From contig JAQUNC010000028.1 of assembly GCA_028717805.1 (NCBI GenBank), forward strand, positions 1-32,669: a stretch of DNA of 32,669 nt, written 5' to 3'. The notes under the pieces are model-generated. The model ran no database searches and had not been told where the DNA came from. It saw nothing but the letters and a program-made list of their open reading frames with translations. The position numbers and the translations under genes were made by a program. Shown one piece after another: positions 660-25,913 of this stretch (positions are counted from its first letter, which is position 1; each line of letters starts with the position of its first letter). Source of the stretch: Atribacterota bacterium. GTDB lineage: Bacteria; Atribacterota; Phoenicimicrobiia; Phoenicimicrobiales; Stramentimicrobiaceae.

Positions 660-3221
660 TTGAGAAGAATTCATTATTTGTTGCTCCTATTTATTACAAT
701 TATCACATTCCTGATAATTCCCTGTGTAGCCATCTGTTATACAGCAGAAAACACTATGGATTGGACAGAAGCTGAGATTAATTTTATTACTGCACATCCT
801 GTCATTCATCTTGCTGTAGATCCGAAGTTTATACCATTTGAATTTTTTGATGAGGATGAAGAATATAAGGGTATCGCTGCTGATTATCTTTCGTTAATCA
901 GTGAGAGAACCGGTTTAAAATTTGATATTGCTAAAGGATTAACCTGGCCGGAAGCCTATGATATGGCTCTATCCAGAAAGGTTGATGCCTTGCCAGCAAT
1001 ATCAAAGACAGAAGAAAGAAAAGTGCATTTTCTTTTTTCTAAACCCTATTTCTATTTCAAACGTGTTATTGTGATCCGTGATACGGATAGTAGCATTGCA
1101 GATATTGATGATTTGGCAGGATTAACGGTTGCAGTGCAAAGAAATAGTTCACATCACAGCTATCTGTTATCTTATCCAAATATAAATTTAAGTTTATATG
1201 ATTCTGTTGAAGCAGCATTAGCATCAGTGGCAAGTGGTACAGAAAAAGCCTTCGTGGGCAATCTTGCTACTACAAGCTATCTGGTGCGCTTACATGCTCT
1301 GACCAATTTGAAATTTATCGTATTCGAAGCAGAAAAAGAACAAGCTCTGTATTTTGCTGTTCGTAAAGATTAGCCAGAACTGATTAGTATTATCAATAAA
1401 ACACTTAATAACATCACCGAAGAAGAAAAAATTGCCATTAGTAATAAGTGGATTGAATTTGAACCAGAGATCGATTATGGTCCAATTCTGCGAATTATTC
1501 TATTGGTCGGCTCTATCCTGGCTGTTGTTATGGCAGTTTCTTTTTTCTGGATTATTCGCTTAAAGAAAGAAATTAAGAAGCGACAGCAGATTCAAATTGA
1601 TCTGGAAAAGGCGAAAAGAGAAGCCGATGAGGCGAATGAATTCAAAACCAGCTTTATGGCAAGGATGTCTCATGAAATCCGGACACCGCTTAACGCAATC
1701 ACTGGAATGGCCTACCTTCTTAAAAAAACTGATATCTCTTTAACACAAAGCATGTATATTGATCGTATTACTCAGGCTTCCAACAATATGTTGAGTATAA
1801 TAAATGATATTCTAGATTTTTCTAAAATCGAGGCTGGAAAAGTAGAACTTGAAATTGCCTCTTTCAGTTTGGATCAGGTGATTCAGGATGTAATTAACAT
1901 AGTATCCTATAAAATTGAAGAACAGGAAATAGGATTGAAACTATCCAAGGATCCCCAAATTCCCAATTGGTTTTTTGGGGATGTCAAGAGAATTGAACAG
2001 ATTCTTCTTAATCTCTTGAACAATGCCGCAAAATTTACCACTTCCGGTGAAGTCTCGCTGGATATTAGACTTATAGCTAAAGAAAATGAAAAATATCACC
2101 TGTCCTTCTCTATCGAAGATACTGGTATAGGCATGACCGAAGAGCAAATAAATAAGCTATTTATGCCCTTTATTCAGGGAGATAGCAGTATTAACCGTCG
2201 TTTCGGAGGTTCCGGACTGGGACTCTCCATTGTTAAAAATCTGGTCGAGATGATGGGAGGGCAAATAAAGGTTTTTAGTACGCCGGGAGAAGGCTCCACC
2301 TTTATCGTTCATTTGTCATTAAGTATAGATAAAAAGAAGGAAGAGATGTATAAAAAAACCTTGTCAGTATCAGCTAAACATTTCAAGGATGTCAGGACAC
2401 TGGTACTGGAAAAAACAGGGGCCAGTATGAATTTAATAGACAGCTATCTGGGTGCTTTTGGTATGCATTGCGAGCTTACCAGCTCACAAGACAGTGCATT
2501 GAGCTTGCTGGAAGCTGCTGATGGTAAATTTAGTAAACCCTTTGATTTATTTATTCTTGATTATGACACTCCTCTGGAAGGAGGTTTTGAATTTATAGAG
2601 TCGCTTCGGAATAATGAAAAAATTGTTAAAATGCCAAAGCTTATTATGCTGTTGCCGATGATGAGAGAAGATTTATTCGACAAACTCGATGAACACGGAA
2701 TTAATCTCGGTATCGGCAAACCAATCATTCCCTCTATTCTTTTAAATGGAATTCTGGATATGTTCAAGTTGAAGGCTATATCGGCATCCCAACCTGCTAT
2801 AAATAAAGATGATAACATGACAAAGCTTGATAAAGACCACACTGTATTGCTGGTAGAAGATAATAAAACAAATCAATTGATTGCGAAGTCCCTTCTCCAA
2901 CGAGTTGGCATCAAATCGATTATAGCTAATGATGGGAAAGAAGCTGTTGCTCTTTATCAGCAACATAAGGATGGCATTGATTTGATTTTAATGGATTTAC
3001 ATATGCCTGTTATGAATGGTTATGAGGCAGCTTGGGAAATTAGAAAAATATCACCTGACGTTCCCATTGTAGCCATGACGGCAGATGTTATTTTGGGAGT
3101 TCGGGAAAAGTGCGAGCAAAGCGGGATTCACCATTACATTAGTAAACCTTTTGAACCTGATCATTTCATTCAAACGATTAAAGATATTATTGCAGAGGAG
3201 GAGGATAACAAAGATAATTAA
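660..3221 (+). pseudogene. BvgS-like hybrid sensor histidine kinase, interrupted by in-frame TAG
   Basis: One frame runs from a TTG start at 660 to TAA at 3219-3221, broken only by TAG at 1371-1373 (codon 238). Read through, it gives 853 residues: an N-terminal membrane helix (about 6-28), a periplasmic SBP_bac_3 solute-binding domain (about 45-270), a second helix (about 278-300), HisKA with the phospho-acceptor H338 in SHEIRTP, HATPase with N box, DTGIGM and GGSGLGLS, then two receiver domains (aspartates about D634 and D779). Family proteins usually have Trp in the position after AVRKD, so TGG to TAG is the likely lesion. As written, translation would yield only the sensor domain, unless re-initiation produces a soluble kinase part. 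It heads a phosphorelay with the HPt and EAL genes downstream. Confidence 0.85.
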
Positions 3222-3222
3222 T

Positions 3223-3558
3223 ATGCGTGTCTTAGATCAATCCGCGGGATTAAAGAATGTAGGGAATGACCCGGAAATTTATCAGTTGGTTTTAAATGAA
3301 TATTTCAAGGAAAACAAGGATACTATAGATAATCTTTCTTTAGCCATAAACGAAAAGAAATATGAGGATGCTGCTCAAATTGTTCATAAGGTTAAGGGAA
3401 GTTCTGGAAGTATCGGTGCCAGAGCTTTGTATGACGTTTCCGTAATATTACAGAGAGTATTGAAAGAAGAAAAAGAAGATGAGATAATGCCACTTCAGGA
3501 AAAGTTTTCTTACCTATTACAACACTTACTTGAAGAAATTATGGAATTTTTGGTTTAA
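3223..3558 (+). CDS. HPt phosphotransfer protein
   Basis: The product is a 111-residue histidine phosphotransfer domain with the H-box HKVKGSSGS and phospho-acceptor H55. It should shuttle phosphate between the second receiver of the kinase and the downstream receiver protein. The ATG lies one base after the kinase stop, in another frame. The AGGAGG at 3199-3204 is 18 bases away, too far for a normal ribosome site, so it is either translationally coupled or the detached C-terminal domain of the kinase produced by an indel in the GGA-repeat stretch at 3195-3205. Many BvgS-like kinases carry HPt at this place. The domain itself looks complete. Confidence 0.75.
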   Translation: MRVLDQSAGLKNVGNDPEIYQLVLNEYFKENKDTIDNLSLAINEKKYEDAAQIVHKVKGSSGSIGARALYDVSVILQRVLKEEKEDEIMPLQEKFSYLLQHLLEEIMEFLV

Positions 3559-8462: not shown

Positions 8463-9439
8463 ATGAAGAAGTTAAGTATATTTATCACTGTTGTTTTAGT
8501 ATTTGCTTTTTTAGTAATTCAACCTGTTTCGGCGGTAGAGGTAATCAGATGCGGGCATGGTCATAGTACTACACATCCAGTACATCTGGGATTTGAGTAT
8601 TCAAAGAATTAATAGAGCTAAAAACTGATAAATATAAAGTCGAAATATTTCCGACTTCCCAATTGGGAAGTGAAGCCGAAATGGCTGAAATGACTAAATT
8701 GGGAACAATGGAAGCTTTTATGTTTGGTCGAATGGAATCCCAGGGTAAACAACTTTATACACTTGCCGTTCCTTTTGTATTTAAGGATTATGAACATGTA
8801 AACAGGGTGTTAAGCGGTTCTATCGGGGATTATCTGGCTTCTTTTACTGAAGATAATGGTTTAAAATTATTAGGCTGGACTCATTCGGGTTTTAGATAAA
8901 TTACCAATAATGTTCGACCAATAAAAACTCCCGCTGATTTTAAAGGTCTAAAGATGAGAACACCACCATTGGAAAACATTCTACAAACTATGCAAGCTTT
9001 TGGTGCCAGTGCAACCTCTATTGCTTACAGTGAACTTTATATGGCTCTTAAGACTGGTGTAGTGGATGGACAGGAAAATCCCTATGTAAATATTGTATCT
9101 GAAAAATTTTATGAAGCACAAAAATATCTCACCGAGGTCAATTACATATACAATCCAGGACCATTCTGCGTAGGTCTTGATTGGTGGAATAGCCTTCCCG
9201 CTGAAGATCAAAGAATTATTGCTGAAGCTGCCAAGGTAGCATCTATGTATACAAACTATGTTACCGAATCAACTGAAGAAGGGTATAAGCAGGAATGCAT
9301 TAAACAGGGAATGGAGGTTTATATACCGACTGATGAAGAAAGACAGGCATTTATCGAAATGGCTCAGCCAGTCTATGACTACTTCATTCAAGATGATGCT
9401 ACTATCCAAAGATTAATTGAATTAATTCAAAACAGCTAA
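8463..9439 (+). pseudogene. dctP: TRAP transporter solute-binding protein DctP (frameshift and nonsense)
   Basis: A signal peptide (about 1-24, ending PVSA) is followed by a DctP-type periplasmic binding protein. Two lesions are visible. A single T is missing in FEYFKE near 8597-8602, giving immediate stops in the original frame. A TAA at 8897-8899 sits where the family has Gln in HSGFRQITN. The remainder, including LKMRTPP, GVVDGQENP and PGPF, is well preserved to TAA at 9437-9439. An AAGGAGGT site lies 10 bases before the ATG. The protein would have captured an organic acid, probably an uronate or sugar acid given kduD next door. The high remaining similarity suggests recent inactivation. 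Confidence 0.88.
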
Positions 9440-9546
9440 AAATGAAAAGAAATTATTTACCATTTCCTGATATTACTGATTAAATATTAAGAATTCCCCT
9501 GTCTTTTAGAATAATATGGTGGATAAAATAATGGAGAGAATAATTT

Positions 9547-10041
9547 ATGAAGAATAAATTTAATGAAACATTAAAATGATTAATGATGTGGTGGTTAGTA
9601 TATTTTTCAGTGCGATGTTCATAACTGTTTTTACCTCAGTAATACTATGTTATTTTTGGTTTTTCTTTTCGCTGGACAGAAGAATTAATCCGATATTTAT
9701 TTATATATATGGTCTTTTTTGGAATACCCATTGCCTTTAGACAGAATGTTCATGCAGCTATTGAATATTTTAAATCAACGTTTTTTAAAAGATTCAATTC
9801 AGTATTACAAATTTTTTGTGAACTGGTATTAGGCATAATGGTTGTTTATATAAGTTATTACACCATTATTATGATTAGAGGCAGGTTAGGAAGAACCCTC
9901 TCTTCAGGTCTAAAACTCCCTTTTGCTTATCTCTACAGTTCAGTTCTCTTTTGTTTTGGTCTGCTATTAATTGAAATCATACAACGTTTTTTCATAAAAG
10001 GCTATCGTCAACAACAAATGAAGAGTGATAAGGATAAATAA
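9547..10041 (+). pseudogene. dctQ: TRAP transporter small membrane subunit DctQ (two frameshifts)
   Basis: The protein can be read as a four-helix DctQ subunit only by changing frame twice. One A is missing at 9573-9576, where the first frame hits TGA after ETLK and the correct frame continues MINDVVVSIF. A second indel is in the T-run at 9653-9657, before the conserved W-x-E-E-L segment (GFSFRWTEEL). From 9709 the frame is clean, with YLFIYMVFFGIPIAFRQ and two further helices. DctQ couples the binding protein to the DctM permease. It follows dctP by 107 bases and precedes dctM by 25. Confidence 0.85.
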
Positions 10042-10066
10042 GTATTGATGAGGTGTTAAGGTTAAA

Positions 10067-11313
10067 ATGAGTGCAGGGTTCATATTAGCGATTGTTTTAG
10101 CATTTATGGCTTTGTTGTTAATTATAGGTTGTCCCATTGGTTTTTCTATTTTAATTAGTACTACACTGGGAGTCTTTATACAGGATCTTCCTTCCTCTAT
10201 GGCTACCTTGAGAATGATTGCCAGAGCAGATTCTTTCTTGCTAACAGCAATACCATTTTTTATATTTGCTGGAGTGTTGATGAGGGAAGGAGGAATAACA
10301 AAAAGAATTTTAAATTTTTCGGTTGTTCTTCTGGGACATTTACCAGGTGCTTTAGGTCATGTTAATATTTTTGCCAGCATGGTAAGTATTCTGATTCCCG
10401 AGATGATAGAAAAAAAATATCCTCGAAGCGTGAGTGCAGCAATCACTGCAACATCGTCTACCATAGGAATTATTATACCACCAAGTATACCAATGATCCT
10501 GTATGCAATGGCTTCAGAAACTTCCATCGGTCGTCTATTTCTGGGTGGAGCCATACCTGGTATTCTAGTTGGTTTAATCATGATGGTAATTACTGCCTAT
10601 ATGTCTGTAAAAGAGGGATATGGAAAAGAAAGAGATAATCCCCCAACTTTTAAAGAAGTTGTTGTTGGTTTCAAAGATGGAATATTTGCCTTAACCATGC
10701 CTTTAATCATTATTGGTAGTATTGTTGGCGGGATAGTAACTGCGACCGAAGCTTCTGTTTTAGCTGTTTTCTGTGCTTTGATATTAGGATTTTTTGTATT
10801 CAAAGAATTAAAATTAAAGATATTTACCCCGCTATTAAAGAAACTATTCGCTCGACAGCTGTAGTTATGTTAATTGTAGTTATAGCTACTTTTTTAGGTT
10901 GGTTGCTGGCTTATGGTCAATTGCCCCAGCGAATATCTCTTGCTCTGCTATCGATTTCTAATAATCCTGTAGTTATTTTATTAATCATCAATTTAATCTT
11001 GCTCATTATTGGTACTTTTTCAGATGTTGCTCCTAATATCTTGATTTTAACACCCATTTTTTTACCGGTAGTTGTAAATTTAGGAATAGATCCGGTACAT
11101 TTTGGTGTTGTTATGATTGTGAATCAAGCAATTGCTCTGGTAACTCCACCGGTTGGTAACTGTTTATATATTTGCGCCAATCTTTCTAAATGTAGTGTAG
11201 AAAAGGTTTTTGGAGCATCTATTCCTTATTTATTAGCTAATCTGCTTGTACTGATTTTGGTCACTTTATGGCCAGCAATGGTATTATGGCTACCAAAAAT
11301 GTTGATGCCTTAG
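10067..11313 (+). pseudogene. dctM: TRAP transporter large permease DctM (frameshift plus internal deletion)
   Basis: This is the 12-helix class permease of a TRAP uptake system. Two lesions are visible. First, after FASMV (near 10383) the sequence jumps directly to SILIPEM, so the conserved block with the GxSGSAxADxxxxG motif, roughly 16 residues in the family, is missing. Second, one A is missing near 10817-10819: the first frame ends at 10864, while the other frame continues DIYPAIKETIRSTAVVML through DVAPNILILTPIF and ALVTPPVGNCL to TAG at 11311-11313. The in-frame deletion of a core motif cannot be explained as a homopolymer read error, so this gene is very probably dead. Confidence 0.85.
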
Positions 11314-12183: not shown

Positions 12184-13980
12184 TCATAAGATTTCAACTA
12201 TTTTTTTATTTTTCTTATTAAAGTAGTTAGTATGAAGAAGATGGTGGGATTTTTCGCCCAATGGTTTTTTTAAAAATTCAGCATACAATTGTTTAATGGC
12301 TGAATTTTCATGGGATTTTCTAAATTCTCGTCCCTCATCTTCTTTATAGATTGCCTGAATTCTGGCTTTTCTTACTTCATCATTGGTCATACGTGGTTGA
12401 CCGCCTCCGCCTATACAACCACCTGGACAAGTCATTATTTCAATAAAATGATATTCTTTTTCTCCTTTTAAGATTGCCTCGATAACTTTATTTGCATGTC
12501 CAAGTCCGTGAGCAACTGCAACTTTCAAGGTCACTCCTTCTAAGAACTTCCATTCCGGTAATACACCTTTTATAGTTAGCTGAGCCTCTTTTACTCCCTC
12601 CAATCCTTGAATAGAGGTTACATGGAGTTTATCAAAGGGCAGAGGTCTGCCGGTAACAATTTCATAGGCAGTACGAAGGGCGGCTTCCATAACCCCGCCG
12701 GTATTGGCAAAAATATCTGCTGCTCCGGTAGAAATACCTAATGGAGCATCCATTTCTCCATCTGGTAGGTTAACGAAGTCAATGCCGGCTTGTTTAATCA
12801 TCTTTCCTAATTCCCGAGTGGTCAGGACATAATCCACATCCTGAACTCCGCTGTCGGTCATTTCATCGCGATTACATTCAAATTTTTTGGCAGTACAGGG
12901 CATAATTGATACTACTACCATATCTTCCTTCTTTATACCGATTTTATCAGCAAAATAGGTCTTGGCAACAGCTCCAAACATCTGCTGTGGTGATTTACAG
13001 GTAGAAACATTATCCATCAATTCAGGATAGAAATGCTCCATGTAATTAATCCAACCGGGAGAGCAGGAAGTAAACATGGGCAATTTTACCTTTTCATCTT
13101 TATCTACTAACTTCTTCTTGAGGCGGGTCAACAATTCATTTCCTTCTTCTATGATAGTAAGATCAGCAGCAAAATTAGTATCAAACACCTGTTTAAATCC
13201 TAATCTCCTCAAAGCATTAACCATGCGACCTTTAACCAGGGTACCTGGCGGTAAGTCAAAACATTCGCCCAATGCTGCGCGAATAGCCGGAGCAGTTTGC
13301 ACTATGACATATTTGTTCGGATCTTCCAGAGCTTCCCAGATTTTATCAGTATCATCATGTTCTATAATGGCACCTACAGGGCAAACGACAGCACATTGTC
13401 CACATTGGACACAAACAGCATCTGATAATAAATCAACTTGTCCAGGACCAATAATGGTGTTGAATCCACGGTAACGGGGAGCCAAGGTTGCCACCTTTTG
13501 TACTTCCTGACAGGCAGAAACACATCGACGGCATAAAATACATTTATTTGGGTCTCTAACTATACCTGGGGTGCTGGTATCAAGAGGAAGTTTTTCTTTG
13601 TCAGATTGAAATCTTACCTCTCTAATTCCATATTCTTCAGCTAATGCTTGTAATTCACAATTCTGATTTCGGTCACAGGTATTACATTCCCAGGGATGTG
13701 AACTTAAAAGTAGTTCTAATAGAACCTTCCTAGCATTTCTTACTCTTTTACTGTTTGTTTTGATTTTCATACCTTCCGTTACTTCAGTTATACAAGAGGG
13801 TGGCAAAGTAGCCATACCTTCTACTTCTACAACACACATACGACAAGAACCAGGATTCTGGAGTCCTTCTAAATAACAAAGAGTTGAGATCTTAATGCCT
13901 ATCTTTTGAGCAGCTTTTAAAATGGTTGTTCCTTCCTCAACTTCTAAAGGTATATTATTTATTTCAACTTTTACTGCCAT
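12184..13980 (-). CDS. [FeFe] hydrogenase, multi-cluster catalytic subunit (HydA/HndD type)
   Basis: The 598-residue protein begins with a 2Fe-2S ferredoxin domain (C35, C46, C49, C63), then a His-Cys3 4Fe-4S site (H95, C99, C102, C108), two 4Fe-4S clusters (C147/150/153/157 and C190/193/196/200) and the H-cluster domain. The three signatures are TSCSPGW (C306), MPCTAKK (C362) and MTCPGGCIGGGGQP (C518, C522). It reduces protons or oxidises H2 in the cytoplasm, probably with ferredoxin or as part of an NADH-linked bifurcating complex; no NuoE/F-type partners are in the window. The length and domain order match HndD-like subunits. AGGAG precedes the ATG. All cluster ligands are present, so it should be functional and oxygen sensitive. 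Confidence 0.95.
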   Translation of the reverse strand: MAVKVEINNIPLEVEEGTTILKAAQKIGIKISTLCYLEGLQNPGSCRMCVVEVEGMATLPPSCITEVTEGMKIKTNSKRVRNARKVLLELLLSSHPWECNTCDRNQNCELQALAEEYGIREVRFQSDKEKLPLDTSTPGIVRDPNKCILCRRCVSACQEVQKVATLAPRYRGFNTIIGPGQVDLLSDAVCVQCGQCAVVCPVGAIIEHDDTDKIWEALEDPNKYVIVQTAPAIRAALGECFDLPPGTLVKGRMVNALRRLGFKQVFDTNFAADLTIIEEGNELLTRLKKKLVDKDEKVKLPMFTSCSPGWINYMEHFYPELMDNVSTCKSPQQMFGAVAKTYFADKIGIKKEDMVVVSIMPCTAKKFECNRDEMTDSGVQDVDYVLTTRELGKMIKQAGIDFVNLPDGEMDAPLGISTGAADIFANTGGVMEAALRTAYEIVTGRPLPFDKLHVTSIQGLEGVKEAQLTIKGVLPEWKFLEGVTLKVAVAHGLGHANKVIEAILKGEKEYHFIEIMTCPGGCIGGGGQPRMTNDEVRKARIQAIYKEDEGREFRKSHENSAIKQLYAEFLKKPLGEKSHHLLHTNYFNKKNKKIVEIL

Positions 13981-14593
13981 TTTATTCTCCTAGTTTTCTG
14001 TTTTTAATATTCAAGATAAAATAATATTTTATTTTTTATATAAATTTTAATGATATTTATTCTAAAGATAGTATTAGATAGCATTTGGAATTCTAGGGAG
14101 AAGGTAAAGAAGAGTGACAATAATGAGTTATATGAAATGGTGCAATAAACGAGCTAATAATGCCCATATTCCCTCCTTTCCAAAGATGGGAGGCATGGCA
14201 ATTTCTAACCATACCCTCGAGATTTTTATATCTGCCGGTTGTTTTCCATGGATTACTCTTTAGGTAAAACAACTCGGAGAGATAGTAAATATTTTAATTT
14301 CATTTTTTGTTAATATAACATAAGAGCAAAAGCAAATCAAGTGATTTATAAAGATAGGGATAATATTGCGGTAAGAGGGGTAATCGAGTCTTGGAATGAT
14401 GTTATATACTAACCAGGTATATTTTGAAGATTTGATCCAACCTGAATTTTTTCGATTAACTTTTCTGTTTATCCTTTCCTTTTTATAAATGCAATAAACA
14501 AATATCTACTTGTTTTCTATTTTACATTATAATATGATGATGTGAAAAGAAGCATATATGTTTAATATTAAATTATTGAAGGAGACAGAAAAA
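13981..14593. other. Intergenic region between hydrogenase and DUF488 genes
   Basis: About 600 bases separate the divergent genes. A 46-codon ATG frame at 14123-14263 has no ribosome site or recognisable similarity. Fragments around 14340-14410 read YKDRDNIAVRGVIESW before a stop and could be a gene relic, but this is weak. TATAAT-like words lie near 14528-14533, just upstream of the DUF488 gene. Confidence 0.4.
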
Positions 14594-21504: not shown

Positions 21505-21575
21505 TTGATTTAGTGATGATGCTTTTGTAGATTTCAGAAAATAAAATGGTGAAAGGTTGGAGGGCGGTGTTTTTT

Positions 21576-22022
21576 ATGAAAGAAAATCTAATTGCTCCCT
21601 GTGGAATGAACTGTAGTTTATGTATTGCCTATCAATTTAGAAAAAAAGACCTGAACAAACAGGGATTTCATAAGACCTATTGTACTGGCTGTATACCAAG
21701 AGGGAAAAACTGTACTTGGATGGGGGACCAGTGTGAATTGCTTAAAAAAGGAAGTATCCGATTTTGCTATGAGTGTCAGTCTTTCCCCTGTAAACGGTTG
21801 AAACCATTGGATAAGCGCTATCGCACAAAATATCATATGAGTATGATAGAAAATCTCAAATTTTTAAGAGATAGTGGCATGAAGAGTTTTCTGAAAAAGG
21901 AAGAAGAAAAGTGGAAGTGTCCTACGTGTGGTGATGTGATATGCTGCCATAACGGTCTATGCTTAAATTGTAACATCGATACATTGCTACAGAACAAAAA
22001 ATATCGTTGGAACGAGGAGTAG
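21576..22022 (+). CDS. DUF3795 cysteine-rich protein
   Basis: The 148-residue protein has the DUF3795 arrangement: APCGMNCSLCIAY at the N-terminus, CTGCIPRGKNC, RFCYECQSFPCKRLKPLDKRY, then a helical segment and a C-terminal CPTCGDVICC...CLNCN knuckle. The many CxxC pairs suggest zinc or iron-sulfur binding; the cellular role of the family is not established. GGAGGG (21559-21564) lies 11 bases before ATG 21576. An upstream in-frame ATG at 21546 would encode an unconserved extension. It ends four bases before the next gene, so the two are an operon. Confidence 0.82.
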   Translation: MKENLIAPCGMNCSLCIAYQFRKKDLNKQGFHKTYCTGCIPRGKNCTWMGDQCELLKKGSIRFCYECQSFPCKRLKPLDKRYRTKYHMSMIENLKFLRDSGMKSFLKKEEEKWKCPTCGDVICCHNGLCLNCNIDTLLQNKKYRWNEE

Positions 22023-22026
22023 GCTT

Positions 22027-22512
22027 ATGAACTCACTAAATGAACAAATTAGAGAATATAAGAATCAATTAAATAGAGGTTATATCCAAAAAGCTTATAA
22101 GGGAATAATGAACTTTATGTCTGATTTAAAAATTTATCTGGAAAAAAATTATCCGGATTATATCGTGAGTTCCTTATATTTTGGCTATATGGATATGACC
22201 TATTTCGCATTTACCCCTTCCCATTTGAAAAATAGAAAGCTAAAAATTGCTATTGTATTCTTACATGAACAGGGAAGATTTGAAGCTTGGTTAGGGGGGA
22301 GTAATAGAAAGATTCAGGCTGATTATATTGAAAGAATGAGTCATAAAGATATTGAAAAATATAAGCTCTCGAAGGTACTTCCAGGAGTGGATTCCATCAT
22401 TGAATCAATACTGGTAGAAAAACCAGATTTTAACAATCCTGATAACTTGAAACTGCAGATAAAAAAAAGGGCTATTAAATTCATTGCTGATATTACTTCT
22501 TTGTTGAGTTAA
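22027..22512 (+). CDS. Conserved soluble protein (DUF7000-like)
   Basis: The 161-residue protein contains IREYKNQLNRGYIQKAYKGI, a SSLYFGYMDMTYFAFTP strand block, LKIAIVFLHEQGRFEAWLGG and NRKIQ. I recall this pattern from a family annotated as DUF7000 in Firmicutes; the assignment is from memory. There is no signal or membrane segment. The FGYMDMTYF and RFEAWL motifs suggest a compact alpha/beta fold, but no function is known. It follows the DUF3795 gene by four bases with a GAGGAG site overlapping that gene's end. Confidence 0.65.
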   Translation: MNSLNEQIREYKNQLNRGYIQKAYKGIMNFMSDLKIYLEKNYPDYIVSSLYFGYMDMTYFAFTPSHLKNRKLKIAIVFLHEQGRFEAWLGGSNRKIQADYIERMSHKDIEKYKLSKVLPGVDSIIESILVEKPDFNNPDNLKLQIKKRAIKFIADITSLLS

Positions 22513-22622
22513 TAAGATAGGATATGCTCTTAGTATAAACAAAACCTTCAAGTACAATTTAATAGTGAATATATTCCTGGAATTCTCCTTCATTTTAAAA
22601 AAGCCAAGATTTTTTAATCTTA

Positions 22623-23445
22623 TTACTGTTCATTCATCCCGGTATAGAAAAGAACAGCATCTTTTAAAAATTGTGCTGTTCCAGGTTGATTTTTATCATA
22701 ATAATGGGAAAATCTTTCATCTACTACATACATTCGGACAAGACTGGCAGGAGCTTCTTTGTTATAACTCCCCCAATAAAGGGAAAGCCATTGATGGTGT
22801 AAATCTGCTGCTTTTTGTGCTAATTTCCCTGCAGGATTGTCAGTCCGCATAGCTTTCTTTAAGCTCTCCATTAGCTCTTGTTCAATTTTAGTCATTTCTT
22901 CATGTTTAATCTTGATCATATTCTTTATCCTTTCATTGGATTGTTCAATTATTTCCTCTTCATAAAGTTCTCGTATTTCTTGGCTGTATTTTGCTTTATT
23001 TTCTTCTATTAATTTTTTTAAATCCTGCAAATTTTTCTCTATCATTCATTGTGGTGCCCCTTTCTATAGATATTATTGTTTTTCTAACATTATTAATTAG
23101 GATTTCCAATTGCTCTTTTTGTTTTGAAAGCTTTATAAAATAGTCTTTCAGGGCTTTAAGTTCGTCAAAATATGGAGAAGTGATTATTTTTTGAATAGCT
23201 TTAAGGCCCACTCCTAATACCTTATAAAAAAGAATCTGCTGTAGCTTGTTTACTTCTTTTTGAGTATAGATTCGATAACCAGAAGAATTTAGCAGAGCCG
23301 GTTTGAGTAATCCTATTTCGTCACAATAGCGTAGCGTTCTTTTACTTACTCCTGATAATTCAGCTAGTTGTTTAATTGTGTAATTTATTAGCTTAAAATC
23401 CTTGTGTTTTTGAGAATTTGATTGCTTCCCTTTTTCATAGTTCAT
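22623..23445 (-). pseudogene. MerR-family regulator with TipAS drug-binding domain, one frameshift
   Basis: Residues 1-149 give a MerR winged helix (YTIKQLAELSGVSKRTLRYC, GYRIYTQKEVNKLQ) and a dimerisation helix; this frame ends soon after EKFAGFKK. The other frame continues LIEENKAKYSQEIRELYEEE through LAQKAADLHHQWLSLYWGSY to FLKDAVLFYTGMN, a complete TipAS domain. The fault is one extra A in a run of seven (plus-strand T-run 23013-23019); six would join both parts into about 273 residues, the normal TipA-like length. TipA-type proteins bind multiple drugs and activate their target promoter. As written only a DNA-binding protein would be made, unless a separate TipAS protein is translated from ATG 23045, similar to TipAS expression in TipA systems. 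A homopolymer read error is possible. Confidence 0.8.
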
Positions 23446-23688
23446 ATTATAAATCTTTACGTAATGTTAATATCAAGAAATATATTTTAATGATCATGCC
23501 ATAAAATATCATTGGAAATATTAGCTATTATCATAACAAAGCCTTAAAAAATTAGAAAGATTTATGATTTACTAATTTATTAAAAATATTGTTTGAGTTT
23601 TATCATTAAGTTGATTACAATATATTAGTTTTACTACTTTTTCTTACTCAAACATTTTATAGAAATCAATAGAGTCAACAGAGACAGA
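23446..23688. other. Divergent intergenic region, left part
   Basis: About 240 AT-rich bases between the regulator and the promoter of the CPBP gene. I see no gene and no clear promoter for the regulator; its ATG at 23445 lacks a ribosome site. Confidence 0.4.
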
Positions 23689-23720
23689 TTGACAAGATCC
23701 AATCTTGTTTTTTCTAAAAG
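23689..23720 (+). promoter_or_regulatory. MerR-type promoter with dyad in the spacer, upstream of the CPBP gene
   Basis: TTGACA (23689-23694) is followed after 18 bases by TCTAAA (23713-23718), or after 20 bases by TAAAAG. The spacer region carries the perfect dyad ACAAGAT-CCA-ATCTTGT (23692-23708). MerR-family activators bind such a dyad between -35 and -10 of promoters with long spacers, and a MerR gene is divergent 245 bases away. The hairpin is followed by six T residues, so a terminator or attenuator is an alternative, although no plus-strand gene precedes it. Confidence 0.5.
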
Positions 23721-23776
23721 ATAGAAAATGATTTTTTATTAAGAGAAAAGAGAAAAAAATTCTCATCATAAATAAT

Positions 23777-24520
23777 ATGGAAAAATACAAGTTTAATAAA
23801 CTTTATAGATTATTTTCTGGTAGTATAGCAATTATTGTCCTATTTCTTATCCAAATATTCTCCGGTAAGGGTGGATGGACTGTCGCTAATATATTTTCCT
23901 ATAAATTACTTGATCCCTATGACATCTTTGCCAGTATTTCTGTACACCATTTTGTTCAGATGTTTATTGCATTAACTATCATTGCAGTATTAAGTAAGCT
24001 ATTTAAAATAGACTTTGGTTTTTCCTTTGGAGAAAGCAAAATAGGAATAAAATATTTAATAATATTTACTGCTGCCTATGCAACAATTGCCATTGCCAGC
24101 CATATTTTTATGTATATTTTCCATCAGTTACCAACCTATGACTTCCCTTTAAATAAAAATAATATTATTGGAACATTGGGATTTCAACTTTTTTTAAGCG
24201 GACCATCAGAAGAGATATTGTATCGGGCGTTACCGATAACAGTATTGTCATCTATTTTTAGGAATAATATTAAGATACAGCAGGAGATAACAATAGAGGT
24301 AATTATTGCATCTCTCTTGTTTTCTATAGCACATATAAATTGGAATTTATCACCATTTACCATCAAAGTAGACTATTTTCAATTATTTTATGCTTTTATA
24401 TTAGGAGTTATTCAAGGCATAGTATATCAGAAGAGCCGAAGTATTGTATATCCTGCACTAATGCATAGTGTAAGTAATTTTCTGATGGTCGGGTCTGGAT
24501 ATCTACTTGCTTTGTTTTAA
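23777..24520 (+). CDS. CPBP-family intramembrane metalloprotease
   Basis: The 247-residue membrane protein has about seven helices and the three CPBP (CAAX protease/bacteriocin-processing) motifs: EEILYR (E145, E146, R150), FSIAH (H186) and HSVSN (H230, N234). These residues form the zinc/glutamate active site of Rce1-like proteases. In bacteria the family includes immunity and peptide-processing enzymes, but the substrate here is unknown. There is no Shine-Dalgarno sequence before the ATG. It lies downstream of the MerR-type promoter and 170 bases before another membrane protein gene, so both may respond to the TipA-like regulator. Confidence 0.85.
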   Translation: MEKYKFNKLYRLFSGSIAIIVLFLIQIFSGKGGWTVANIFSYKLLDPYDIFASISVHHFVQMFIALTIIAVLSKLFKIDFGFSFGESKIGIKYLIIFTAAYATIAIASHIFMYIFHQLPTYDFPLNKNNIIGTLGFQLFLSGPSEEILYRALPITVLSSIFRNNIKIQQEITIEVIIASLLFSIAHINWNLSPFTIKVDYFQLFYAFILGVIQGIVYQKSRSIVYPALMHSVSNFLMVGSGYLLALF

Positions 24521-24690
24521 TGCAAACATTGTTTTAAATATATGAAAATTCAGTAAAAATATAAGAAGTATTATTGGGCATTTCTGAATAAATATAACGT
24601 TGCCTATAATATTTCTTGATAATCATAAGAGTAGCCTGTGAAAATATATTGATAAGAAACTATTCGAAGAAGATAGAGGAAGATTTGTAT

Positions 24691-25569
24691 ATGAAGGAAA
24701 AAGATCTAAGTTCAAAACGAGTAATAATAATTAGCACTTTAGCCATTTTATTTTCTACATTTTTTGCCATAATTATTCATGCAATGCTGCCAGTCTCCTT
24801 AGATGTTAAGCAATTTAACAGTATTTGGGTTAAATGGTTTGGCTTTCCAGTTATATCTACATTCTATTTTCTTTTCCTTTTTACTCACTGTGTCATTATG
24901 GTGAGATATATTGGATTAAGAGTAATGGCATCACAGCTGCAAATAGGTATCCGACTTGGAATAGTATATGCCATGATGTATATCCTAGGAATGCAGGAGG
25001 TAATAGTTAAGTATTCTCCTTTTTCAAGATGGAACTTAGAATTTGTAAAATATCAATTTTTAATCGGCATTGGAGATGGTATACCAGCATTATTGCTATG
25101 TCTGGTTATTTCTTATTTTACCTTAAATAGTCATGTTCAAGTTAAAGAAATAAAAACACTGGGATTAATAAAAAGTATTAAGATAATATCCATTACTGCT
25201 ATTGCTTTTTTTATAGGGAGAGTAATCTTTTATCAAATTGGTCTTATTGATAGCGAATGTGCTAAATACCCGATACCTTGCTATGTTTGGACAGCCTTAT
25301 TTGGAATATTGATGGGTTGTATTTATGTCATTCTGTATCCTTTGTGGTCGTATGGGAATGCCTTGAAGTTATGGTCTTTACCATTGAGGTTTGCCTTATC
25401 TGTTGGACTTAACTGGATTATCTTTAATAGTTTTATAGGGCTTATTATTAAAGGCACCATGTTTCAAATGTTTTTACGAAGCGGATTAGATATTTTGGTT
25501 CTATTTTTAATATCAATGGCATTGGGAATTAATGAGGTGAGTTCTCCTCATATGATATCCAGAATATAA
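24691..25569 (+). CDS. Polytopic membrane protein of unknown function
   Basis: The 292-residue protein has about eight membrane helices and no motif that I recognise. Notable segments are the N-terminal SSKRVIIISTLAILFSTFFA helix, a conserved-looking WVKWFGFPVIST, and FLIGIGDGIPALLL in the middle. I set the start at ATG 24691, preceded by GAGGAAG (about 24676-24682); an in-frame start at 24616 would add an unlikely polar extension. It follows the CPBP protease gene on the same strand and may share its promoter. It could be a substrate, partner or transporter linked to that protease; this is only context. Confidence 0.7.
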   Translation: MKEKDLSSKRVIIISTLAILFSTFFAIIIHAMLPVSLDVKQFNSIWVKWFGFPVISTFYFLFLFTHCVIMVRYIGLRVMASQLQIGIRLGIVYAMMYILGMQEVIVKYSPFSRWNLEFVKYQFLIGIGDGIPALLLCLVISYFTLNSHVQVKEIKTLGLIKSIKIISITAIAFFIGRVIFYQIGLIDSECAKYPIPCYVWTALFGILMGCIYVILYPLWSYGNALKLWSLPLRFALSVGLNWIIFNSFIGLIIKGTMFQMFLRSGLDILVLFLISMALGINEVSSPHMISRI

Positions 25570-25841
25570 TACCTACACTTAATATTGCTAACTAGTTTTA
25601 GACCACTTAGCATCAAAGACTTTTTAACTCATCAAAAAGTATCATCTTTATCCTGAAAATAATTAAAGGCAATGTTCTCTATGCATTTTGCTGTTGTGTT
25701 ATAAACAATAGTCAAATTGAAGAATGAATATATTAAGATAAAAAGTTAAGAAAAAAAGCGGAGTGCTTTGAGAAAAAAATAAATTTAGATATAATCAATG
25801 TGGATTTAACTACAAGATAGAGAAGAAGGATATACTCATTA
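25570..25841. other. Intergenic region upstream of the C11 protease gene
   Basis: No gene is seen. A small dyad AAAGC-GGAGT-GCTTT at about 25756-25770, followed on the minus strand by T residues, could be a weak minus-strand terminator, but no minus-strand gene precedes it. Confidence 0.4.
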
Positions 25842-25850
25842 TGCTATAAT
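25842..25850 (+). promoter_or_regulatory. Extended -10 promoter of the C11 protease gene
   Basis: TGCTATAAT is a full extended -10 element. No -35 consensus is needed or seen. The start of transcription would lie about 55 bases before the ATG at 25914. Confidence 0.6.
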
Positions 25851-25913
25851 ATAGTAAGTTAAATTGGCATTTTAAACTTAGTAATTAATTTGCAAAATGG
25901 AGGAAAGAATCCT

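Follow-up and report, generated by a model that had tools for sequence, protein, structure and literature searches.

Genes of the locus

The window (the whole stretch of 32,669 nucleotides of DNA that was analysed) carries a tipA-class regulator gene on the minus strand and, facing away from it, genes for a CPBP/Rce1-like protease and for a polytopic membrane protein (Table 1). An earlier note on this DNA had proposed these identities from the sequence alone, and searches with Pfam and NCBIfam confirmed them. A MerR helix-turn-helix (HTH) domain was found in the N-terminal tipA ORF (PF13411, 6.6e-16), a TipAS domain in ORF 22623-23045 (PF07739, 7.9e-31) and a CPBP/Rce1-like domain in ORF 23777-24520 (PF02517, 8.6e-15; 55.2 bits against a cut-off of 22.4). 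The membrane protein (24691-25569) matched no Pfam or NCBIfam family. The locus is largely an ordinary one, made of known kinds of gene.

Five window proteins were compared with the PADLOC models. The HTH part alone gave a match (mad1, residues 22-69); TipAS, the CPBP protease, the membrane protein and a C11 peptidase gave none. With nothing matched beyond the HTH, PADLOC assigned the locus to no known or candidate anti-phage defence system.

Table 1. Features of the tipA-CPBP region, in window positions
Feature	Position	Strand	Basis
TipA N-terminal part (MerR HTH and coiled coil)	22996..23445	-	PF13411; comparison with L005 and L006
TipAS drug-binding part, other frame, no cysteine	22623..23045	-	PF07739
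A-run, changeover from HTH frame to TipAS frame	23013..23019	-	sequence; L005, L006 and L007 single-frame
Internal ribosome-binding site GAAAGGGG (23064-23057) and starts	23043..23064	-	sequence; relatives
Putative MerR-type autoregulatory promoter/operator of tipA	23446..23476	-	TTGATA - 19 bp (TTAACATTACGTAAAGATT) - TATAAT
Perfect dyad of the earlier note	23692..23708	.	chance-level, no matching -10
CPBP/Rce1-like glutamic intramembrane protease (predicted), 247 aa	23777..24520	+	PF02517; alignment with L003
Polytopic membrane protein, no known family, 292 aa	24691..25569	+	sequence; relatives in L047, L049 and L010

A MerR-type promoter directly before tipA

The hexamers TTGATA and TATAAT, 19 bp apart, immediately precede tipA on the minus strand (23476-23446). 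This is the best promoter with a 19- or 20-bp spacer within positions 22500-25900, and an autoregulatory promoter of this kind, directly before the gene, is a mark of the TipA class. The same element occupies the same place before tipA in L005 and L006. The -35 element of the window operator is a variant, TTGATA, where other tipA operators have TTGAC.

Five whole genomes were searched with the operator pattern, allowing up to three mismatches. One site was returned in each of G000, G001, G005 and G006, always before tipA, and the site in the window is the sole match in its whole genome. There was no match in G002 (83% complete), where tipA was also searched for and not found, and the reversed pattern, used as a control, matched in none of the five genomes. 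Since the pattern was drawn from these tipA genes, its matches at tipA arise partly by construction; the lack of other matches does not. A wider set comprised 42 tipA loci, 11 of which (L012, L014, L021, L027, L028, L030, L031, L090, L092, L098 and L105) were not read because the HTH expression did not fit. The operator element, with up to six mismatches at 24 scored positions, was present at all 31 loci read, compared with none for the reversed control. An earlier run with another HTH expression revealed no operator at L012. In L027, L030 and L031, which represent a MerR-TipAS subtype, the promoter stands before the preceding gene.

We also derived a matrix from 27 distinct tipA operators, all taken from other genomes and none from the window. 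The tipA site of the window scored +23.5 bits and the next best window site -4.7. The 26-bp promoter oligonucleotides used for Streptomyces lividans tipA, Bacillus subtilis mta and Caulobacter crescentus skgA, as given in PMC7762955, scored -1.5, 21.4 and 17.1, respectively; because the experimentally used S. lividans tipA oligonucleotide scored poorly, the matrix is not general for all TipA proteins. Compared base by base with the same three oligonucleotides, the window operator is alike at 14, 17 and 13 of 26 positions and the site proposed in the earlier note at 8, 14 and 9 (PMC7762955). With a tipA-type operator directly before it, tipA looks like an ordinary autoregulated gene. The MerR-type promoter therefore belongs on the strand opposite to that previously proposed, and faces tipA, not the CPBP gene.

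The dyad upstream of the CPBP gene

The earlier note had placed a MerR-type promoter at 23689-23720, through which a drug-sensing TipA would activate the CPBP and membrane-protein genes as a drug- or peptide-induced membrane defence or processing module. The divergent gene order agrees with such a module, and so does the recurrence of the CPBP and membrane-protein pair elsewhere. The two elements on which the promoter was based, TTGACA (23689-23694) and a perfect 7-bp dyad (ACAAGAT-CCA-ATCTTGT, 23692-23708), are indeed present in the intergenic region, but the MerR activator layout is not, for no -10 hexamer lies 19 or 20 bp downstream. The hexamers at these two spacings are CTAAAA and TAAAAG, and no spacing from 15 to 21 bp yields a hexamer that combines A at its second position with T at its sixth. 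Thus, no 19/20-bp-spaced promoter with the dyad between its -35 and -10 elements precedes the CPBP gene.

The dyad itself is expected by chance. When the 331-bp spacer, which has 20% GC, was shuffled 1000 times with dinucleotides preserved, 657 shuffles contained perfect 7-bp dyads with loops of 0-10 bp and 416 contained ones with loops of 1-5 bp; two of the former kind were observed in the spacer itself and 62 in the window. Allowing up to two mismatches, the letters of this particular dyad are found once in the window, and they were found in 26 of 100 shuffles of it. The DNA upstream of homologous CPBP genes was compared with the dyad in 38 stretches (L003 and L041 being one contig and L065 counted twice; four too-short loci and L055, for which no CPBP frame was obtained, were left out), and none matched it with fewer than 4 mismatches of 14. 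The best match thus had 4 mismatches, compared with a mean best of 5.0 in 300 shuffles of one stretch. When scored with the tipA operator matrix, the dyad/TTGACA site received -39 bits and rank 9474 of 65278. We conclude that the dyad is at chance level and does not look like a MerR operator. A terminator reading is neither supported nor required, as the dyad was absent from the terminator scan and its RNA fold is weak (z -1.38; equalled or exceeded in stability by 17 of 200 shuffles).

Together with an operator that faces the other way, a regulator that is broken and CPBP relatives with no TipA match beside them (see below), these results make activation of the CPBP and membrane-protein genes by TipA very unlikely. 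The false regulatory link from TipA to CPBP is hereby removed, and the MerR-type promoter reassigned.

Internal start of TipAS

TipA is described as a minimal autoregulated multidrug-resistance system in which two start codons give rise to TipAL and TipAS (PMC7762955); the short TipAS form was described for S. lividans and is assumed for AlbA in PMC6078987. In the window, the internal ribosome site of Table 1 and ATG 23049 (23064-23047) lie in the HTH frame and correspond to the conserved TipAS start. A second codon, ATG 23045, overlaps the first (ATGAATG) and starts the TipAS frame. The window thus has the internal start, with its ribosome site, that typifies the TipA class.

In all 31 tipA genes read out of the 42 loci, a Shine-Dalgarno sequence and ATG were found 97-100 codons past the HTH motif; among the remaining in-frame start codons of the same genes, 15 of 313 were preceded by a Shine-Dalgarno sequence. 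The earlier run with the other HTH expression revealed the internal start in 32 of 33 loci read (control, 18 of 338); it was present in L012, L014, L090, L092, L098 and L105 and absent in L021. The MerR-TipAS subtype (L027, L030 and L031) is without it. Given these counts, the short TipAS form seems to be a conserved product in the wider set, and the earlier note was right to suppose that the drug-binding part could come from its own start. The operator matrix and the internal-start signature together provide a means to recognise tipA genes in uncultured phyla.

The frame break in tipA

As had been noticed before, the two parts of the regulator lie in different, overlapping frames, with the A-run at the changeover. 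The HTH frame is lost about 10 codons beyond ATG 23049. In relatives L005, L006 and L007 tipA is read in one frame; the TipAS part of the window is 66% identical to the single-frame tipA of G006 and 59% identical to that of G005. The TipAS cut-off was passed at 17 places in 386 genomes. Thirteen of these are in frames of at least 253 aa, and the other four are the window (140 aa), L020 (153 aa) and two short fragments, of which one is at the end of a contig. Because the HTH is not followed by TipAS in one protein, the gene was filed as a broken homologue and not as a working member of the TipA class. Like TipA, Mta and SkgA, it has a MerR HTH, a coiled coil, a TipAS domain, a putative 19-bp-spaced autoregulatory promoter and an internal TipAS start; unlike them, it is frame-broken and has ATA at the position of the start codon.

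This ATA (23388-23386) is aligned with the start of tipA in L005 and L006. The upstream ATG 23445 abuts the -10 box and is therefore unlikely to be in a transcript from that promoter. The HTH motif contains RYC in the window and RYY in L005, L006 and L007. With the frame broken and no standard start codon at the usual place, tipA has most likely decayed or was mis-assembled, and both real decay and assembly error are possible. We infer that TipA function has been lost in the window.

If the break were a sequencing or assembly error at the homopolymer, the organism would have an intact, working autoregulated tipA. The break does fall within a run of seven A, the gene is in a single frame in its relatives of G001, G005 and G006, the TipAS frame is fully kept and the operator is nearly intact. 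However, rpoB of this genome reads through as a single 1210-aa frame, other window genes have not only frame breaks but also in-frame stops, and the ATA codon and the RYC variant stand against an intact gene. An error of this kind is plausible, though on balance we doubt it.

We also considered a gene that is split but functional, in which the HTH and coiled coil alone would activate permanently, in the way of TipAN or MtaN, and TipAS would be made from 23045. The strong internal ribosome site with its overlapping ATGAATG would suit this arrangement, and TipAN binds its promoter better than TipAL, 44 versus 380 nM (PMC7762955). Among the matches listed in two larger surveys, six tipA genes have an open frame shorter than 200 aa. 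Four of them are cut between HTH and TipAS, as in the window: in the linker (L113 and L115), by a stop 7 codons before the internal start (L114) or in the coiled coil (L141). In L143, however, the cut falls within TipAS, and L142 contains just a remnant, whose TipAS has a TAA and which shows no HTH over the 316 bp left before the contig ends. The predicted transcript of the window gene contains no ATG, GTG or TTG for the HTH part. Finding such cuts required that TipAS was kept, so the sample is biased and does not show selection for splitting. A functional split is thus improbable, and equally so the more general notion that splitting is a recurrent state in which an always-on HTH activator and separate TipAS sequester drug constitutively while the sensor is no longer inducible. 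A programmed recurrent split site was rejected, since among the six genes from the matches listed the breaks are at different places. The cut tipA genes look like rare ordinary decay (or assembly error).

The CPBP protease and its neighbourhoods

The CPBP motif set consists of E-E-x3-R, H and H-x3-N. In an alignment with L003 the window protein, which is polytopic, keeps all of these residues (E145-E146-x3-R150, H186, H230 and N234), as CPBP/Rce1-like proteases (PF02517) do, and is a predicted protease. A profile search against PDB gave no match.

Two of 50 genomes from the phylum, a set to which the window genome also belongs, contain CPBP relatives. The other copy, L003, comes from G002, a genome of the same genus, and is 60% identical; it is on the same contig, with the same genes, as L041 from Candidatus Atribacteria USDE_maxbin.108. 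A pattern-based scan of a species-genome collection gave 41 CPBP loci, mostly from Bacillota. The relatives, from Bacillota, Chloroflexota, Spirochaetota and Atribacterota, are 33-62% identical over at least 120 aa. In a CPBP tree of 37 rows the window copy is apart from the same-genus L041, with low supports near the window copy, and the three copies with a membrane-protein neighbour are not one group. With CPBP and membrane-protein profiles, no relatives were detected in viral contigs, and plasmids yielded one remote CPBP piece and no membrane protein.

In 12 of the 41 loci, one of the three ORFs preceding CPBP is a TetR-type gene (L035, L038, L040, L042, L043, L045, L046, L050, L051, L052, L053 and L056; the call covers two clusters, one member of each having been scanned and found over the TetR_N cut-off). 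A MarR-like gene, below the Pfam cut-off, is upstream in L047 and L049. In total, 14 of 41 loci have a TetR- or MarR-like regulator close upstream, whereas the neighbour of the window CPBP gene is tipA. The remaining 27 loci, some cut by contig ends, have neither within three ORFs upstream. DUF6544 and a second CPBP were among the other partners. A further partner family was found near CPBP in L044, L050 and L053, its members in L050 and L053 matching ICMT/PEMT methyltransferases. In these two loci (L050, 4611-6113; L053, 4572-6101) the CPBP (Rce1-like) gene is followed directly by the ICMT/PEMT-like gene, an order that resembles the eukaryotic CAAX-processing pair.

No match to the window HTH, the window TipAS or intact TipA was detected at any of the 41 CPBP loci (tblastn, E <= 1e-3). 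Conversely, none of the 42 tipA loci had a CPBP or membrane-protein match in their flanks, which measure about 1.5 kb or less, so that more distant CPBP genes would be missed. The trio of regulator, protease and membrane protein, which the earlier note had suggested looking for elsewhere, was thus not encountered. Among the papers listed in a literature search none was on a TipA-CPBP pair, which is no proof of absence.

A recurrent pair of CPBP and membrane protein

A first scan of genome contigs with the membrane protein gave no relatives. A relative 65% identical was found in G032 (L010); it has no CPBP neighbour, and there is no CPBP match in that genome. Two others adjoin CPBP genes, in L047 (Peptococcaceae UBA4068, 26% identical) and L049 (Anaerolineales, 25% identical). 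Here a MarR-like gene, the membrane gene and CPBP follow each other in tight order (L047, 3209-5369; L049, 3234-5378), separated by 12 to 72 bp as measured between the ends of the ORFs. These clusters share with the window two membrane-gene families side by side; in the window, however, the order is reversed, the gap is 170 bp and no MarR-like gene is present. Of 40 CPBP-bearing genomes, those of L047 and L049 alone have clear copies of the membrane protein, and G539 has weak pieces.

Although the L047 and L049 copies came to light because the surroundings of CPBP genes were inspected, chance is an unlikely cause of the pairing, since out of 386 genomes a narrower membrane-protein profile matched two, G032 and that of the window. 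A CPBP protease and an uncharacterised membrane protein thus form a recurrent pair in Bacillota, Chloroflexota and Atribacterota. AlphaFold2 applied to the window, L047 and L049 membrane proteins gave a mean pLDDT of 47, and a profile search of the membrane protein against PDB gave no match.

Two probable back-to-back units

Computation established the operator and the lack of a second one in the genome, the conservation of the internal start, the break in the frame and the gene neighbourhoods. Very probably, the locus consists of two back-to-back units: a broken or mis-assembled autoregulated tipA gene, and a separate pair of CPBP and membrane-protein genes that is not controlled by TipA. We infer that the two units are independent of each other. 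Transcription of the first, on the minus strand, would start from a MerR-type promoter of its own (23476-23446). By analogy with studied TipA proteins, a drug bound to the TipAS domain of the intact form would free the HTH dimer to switch on tipA by distorting its over-long spacer of 19 bp, while the second product, TipAS from the internal start, would soak up the drug. The window copy is frame-broken just beyond the internal start and has no standard start codon where one is normally found. The second unit, on the plus strand, would comprise the intramembrane protease and the membrane protein, which elsewhere are also neighbours, beside a MarR-like gene. A broken regulator beside a separate protease pair gives no support to a drug- or peptide-induced membrane module.

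S. lividans TipAS is a covalent thiopeptide trap (PMC7762955). Unlike it, the TipAS part of the window (22623-23045) is without a cysteine for covalent thiopeptide binding, which leaves the thiopeptide guess of the earlier note weak.

Other features of the window

Genes with DUF3795 and DUF7000 adjoin at 21546-22512 and converge on the regulator. A hybrid histidine kinase gene at 660-3558 (SBP_bac_3, HisKA, HATPase, receiver and Hpt) has an in-frame TAG at 1371-1373, and its Hpt part is in another frame. In the TRAP transporter genes at 8463-11313 both DctP and DctM are broken, DctP by a frame break near 8606 and TAA at 8897, DctM by being split over two frames. A molybdenum/tungsten cofactor riboswitch (RF01055, 84.2 bits) was detected on the minus strand at 14157-14291, upstream of a 598-aa minus-strand ORF (12184-13980) whose product, by eye, resembles an iron-sulfur hydrogenase/dehydrogenase-type protein.
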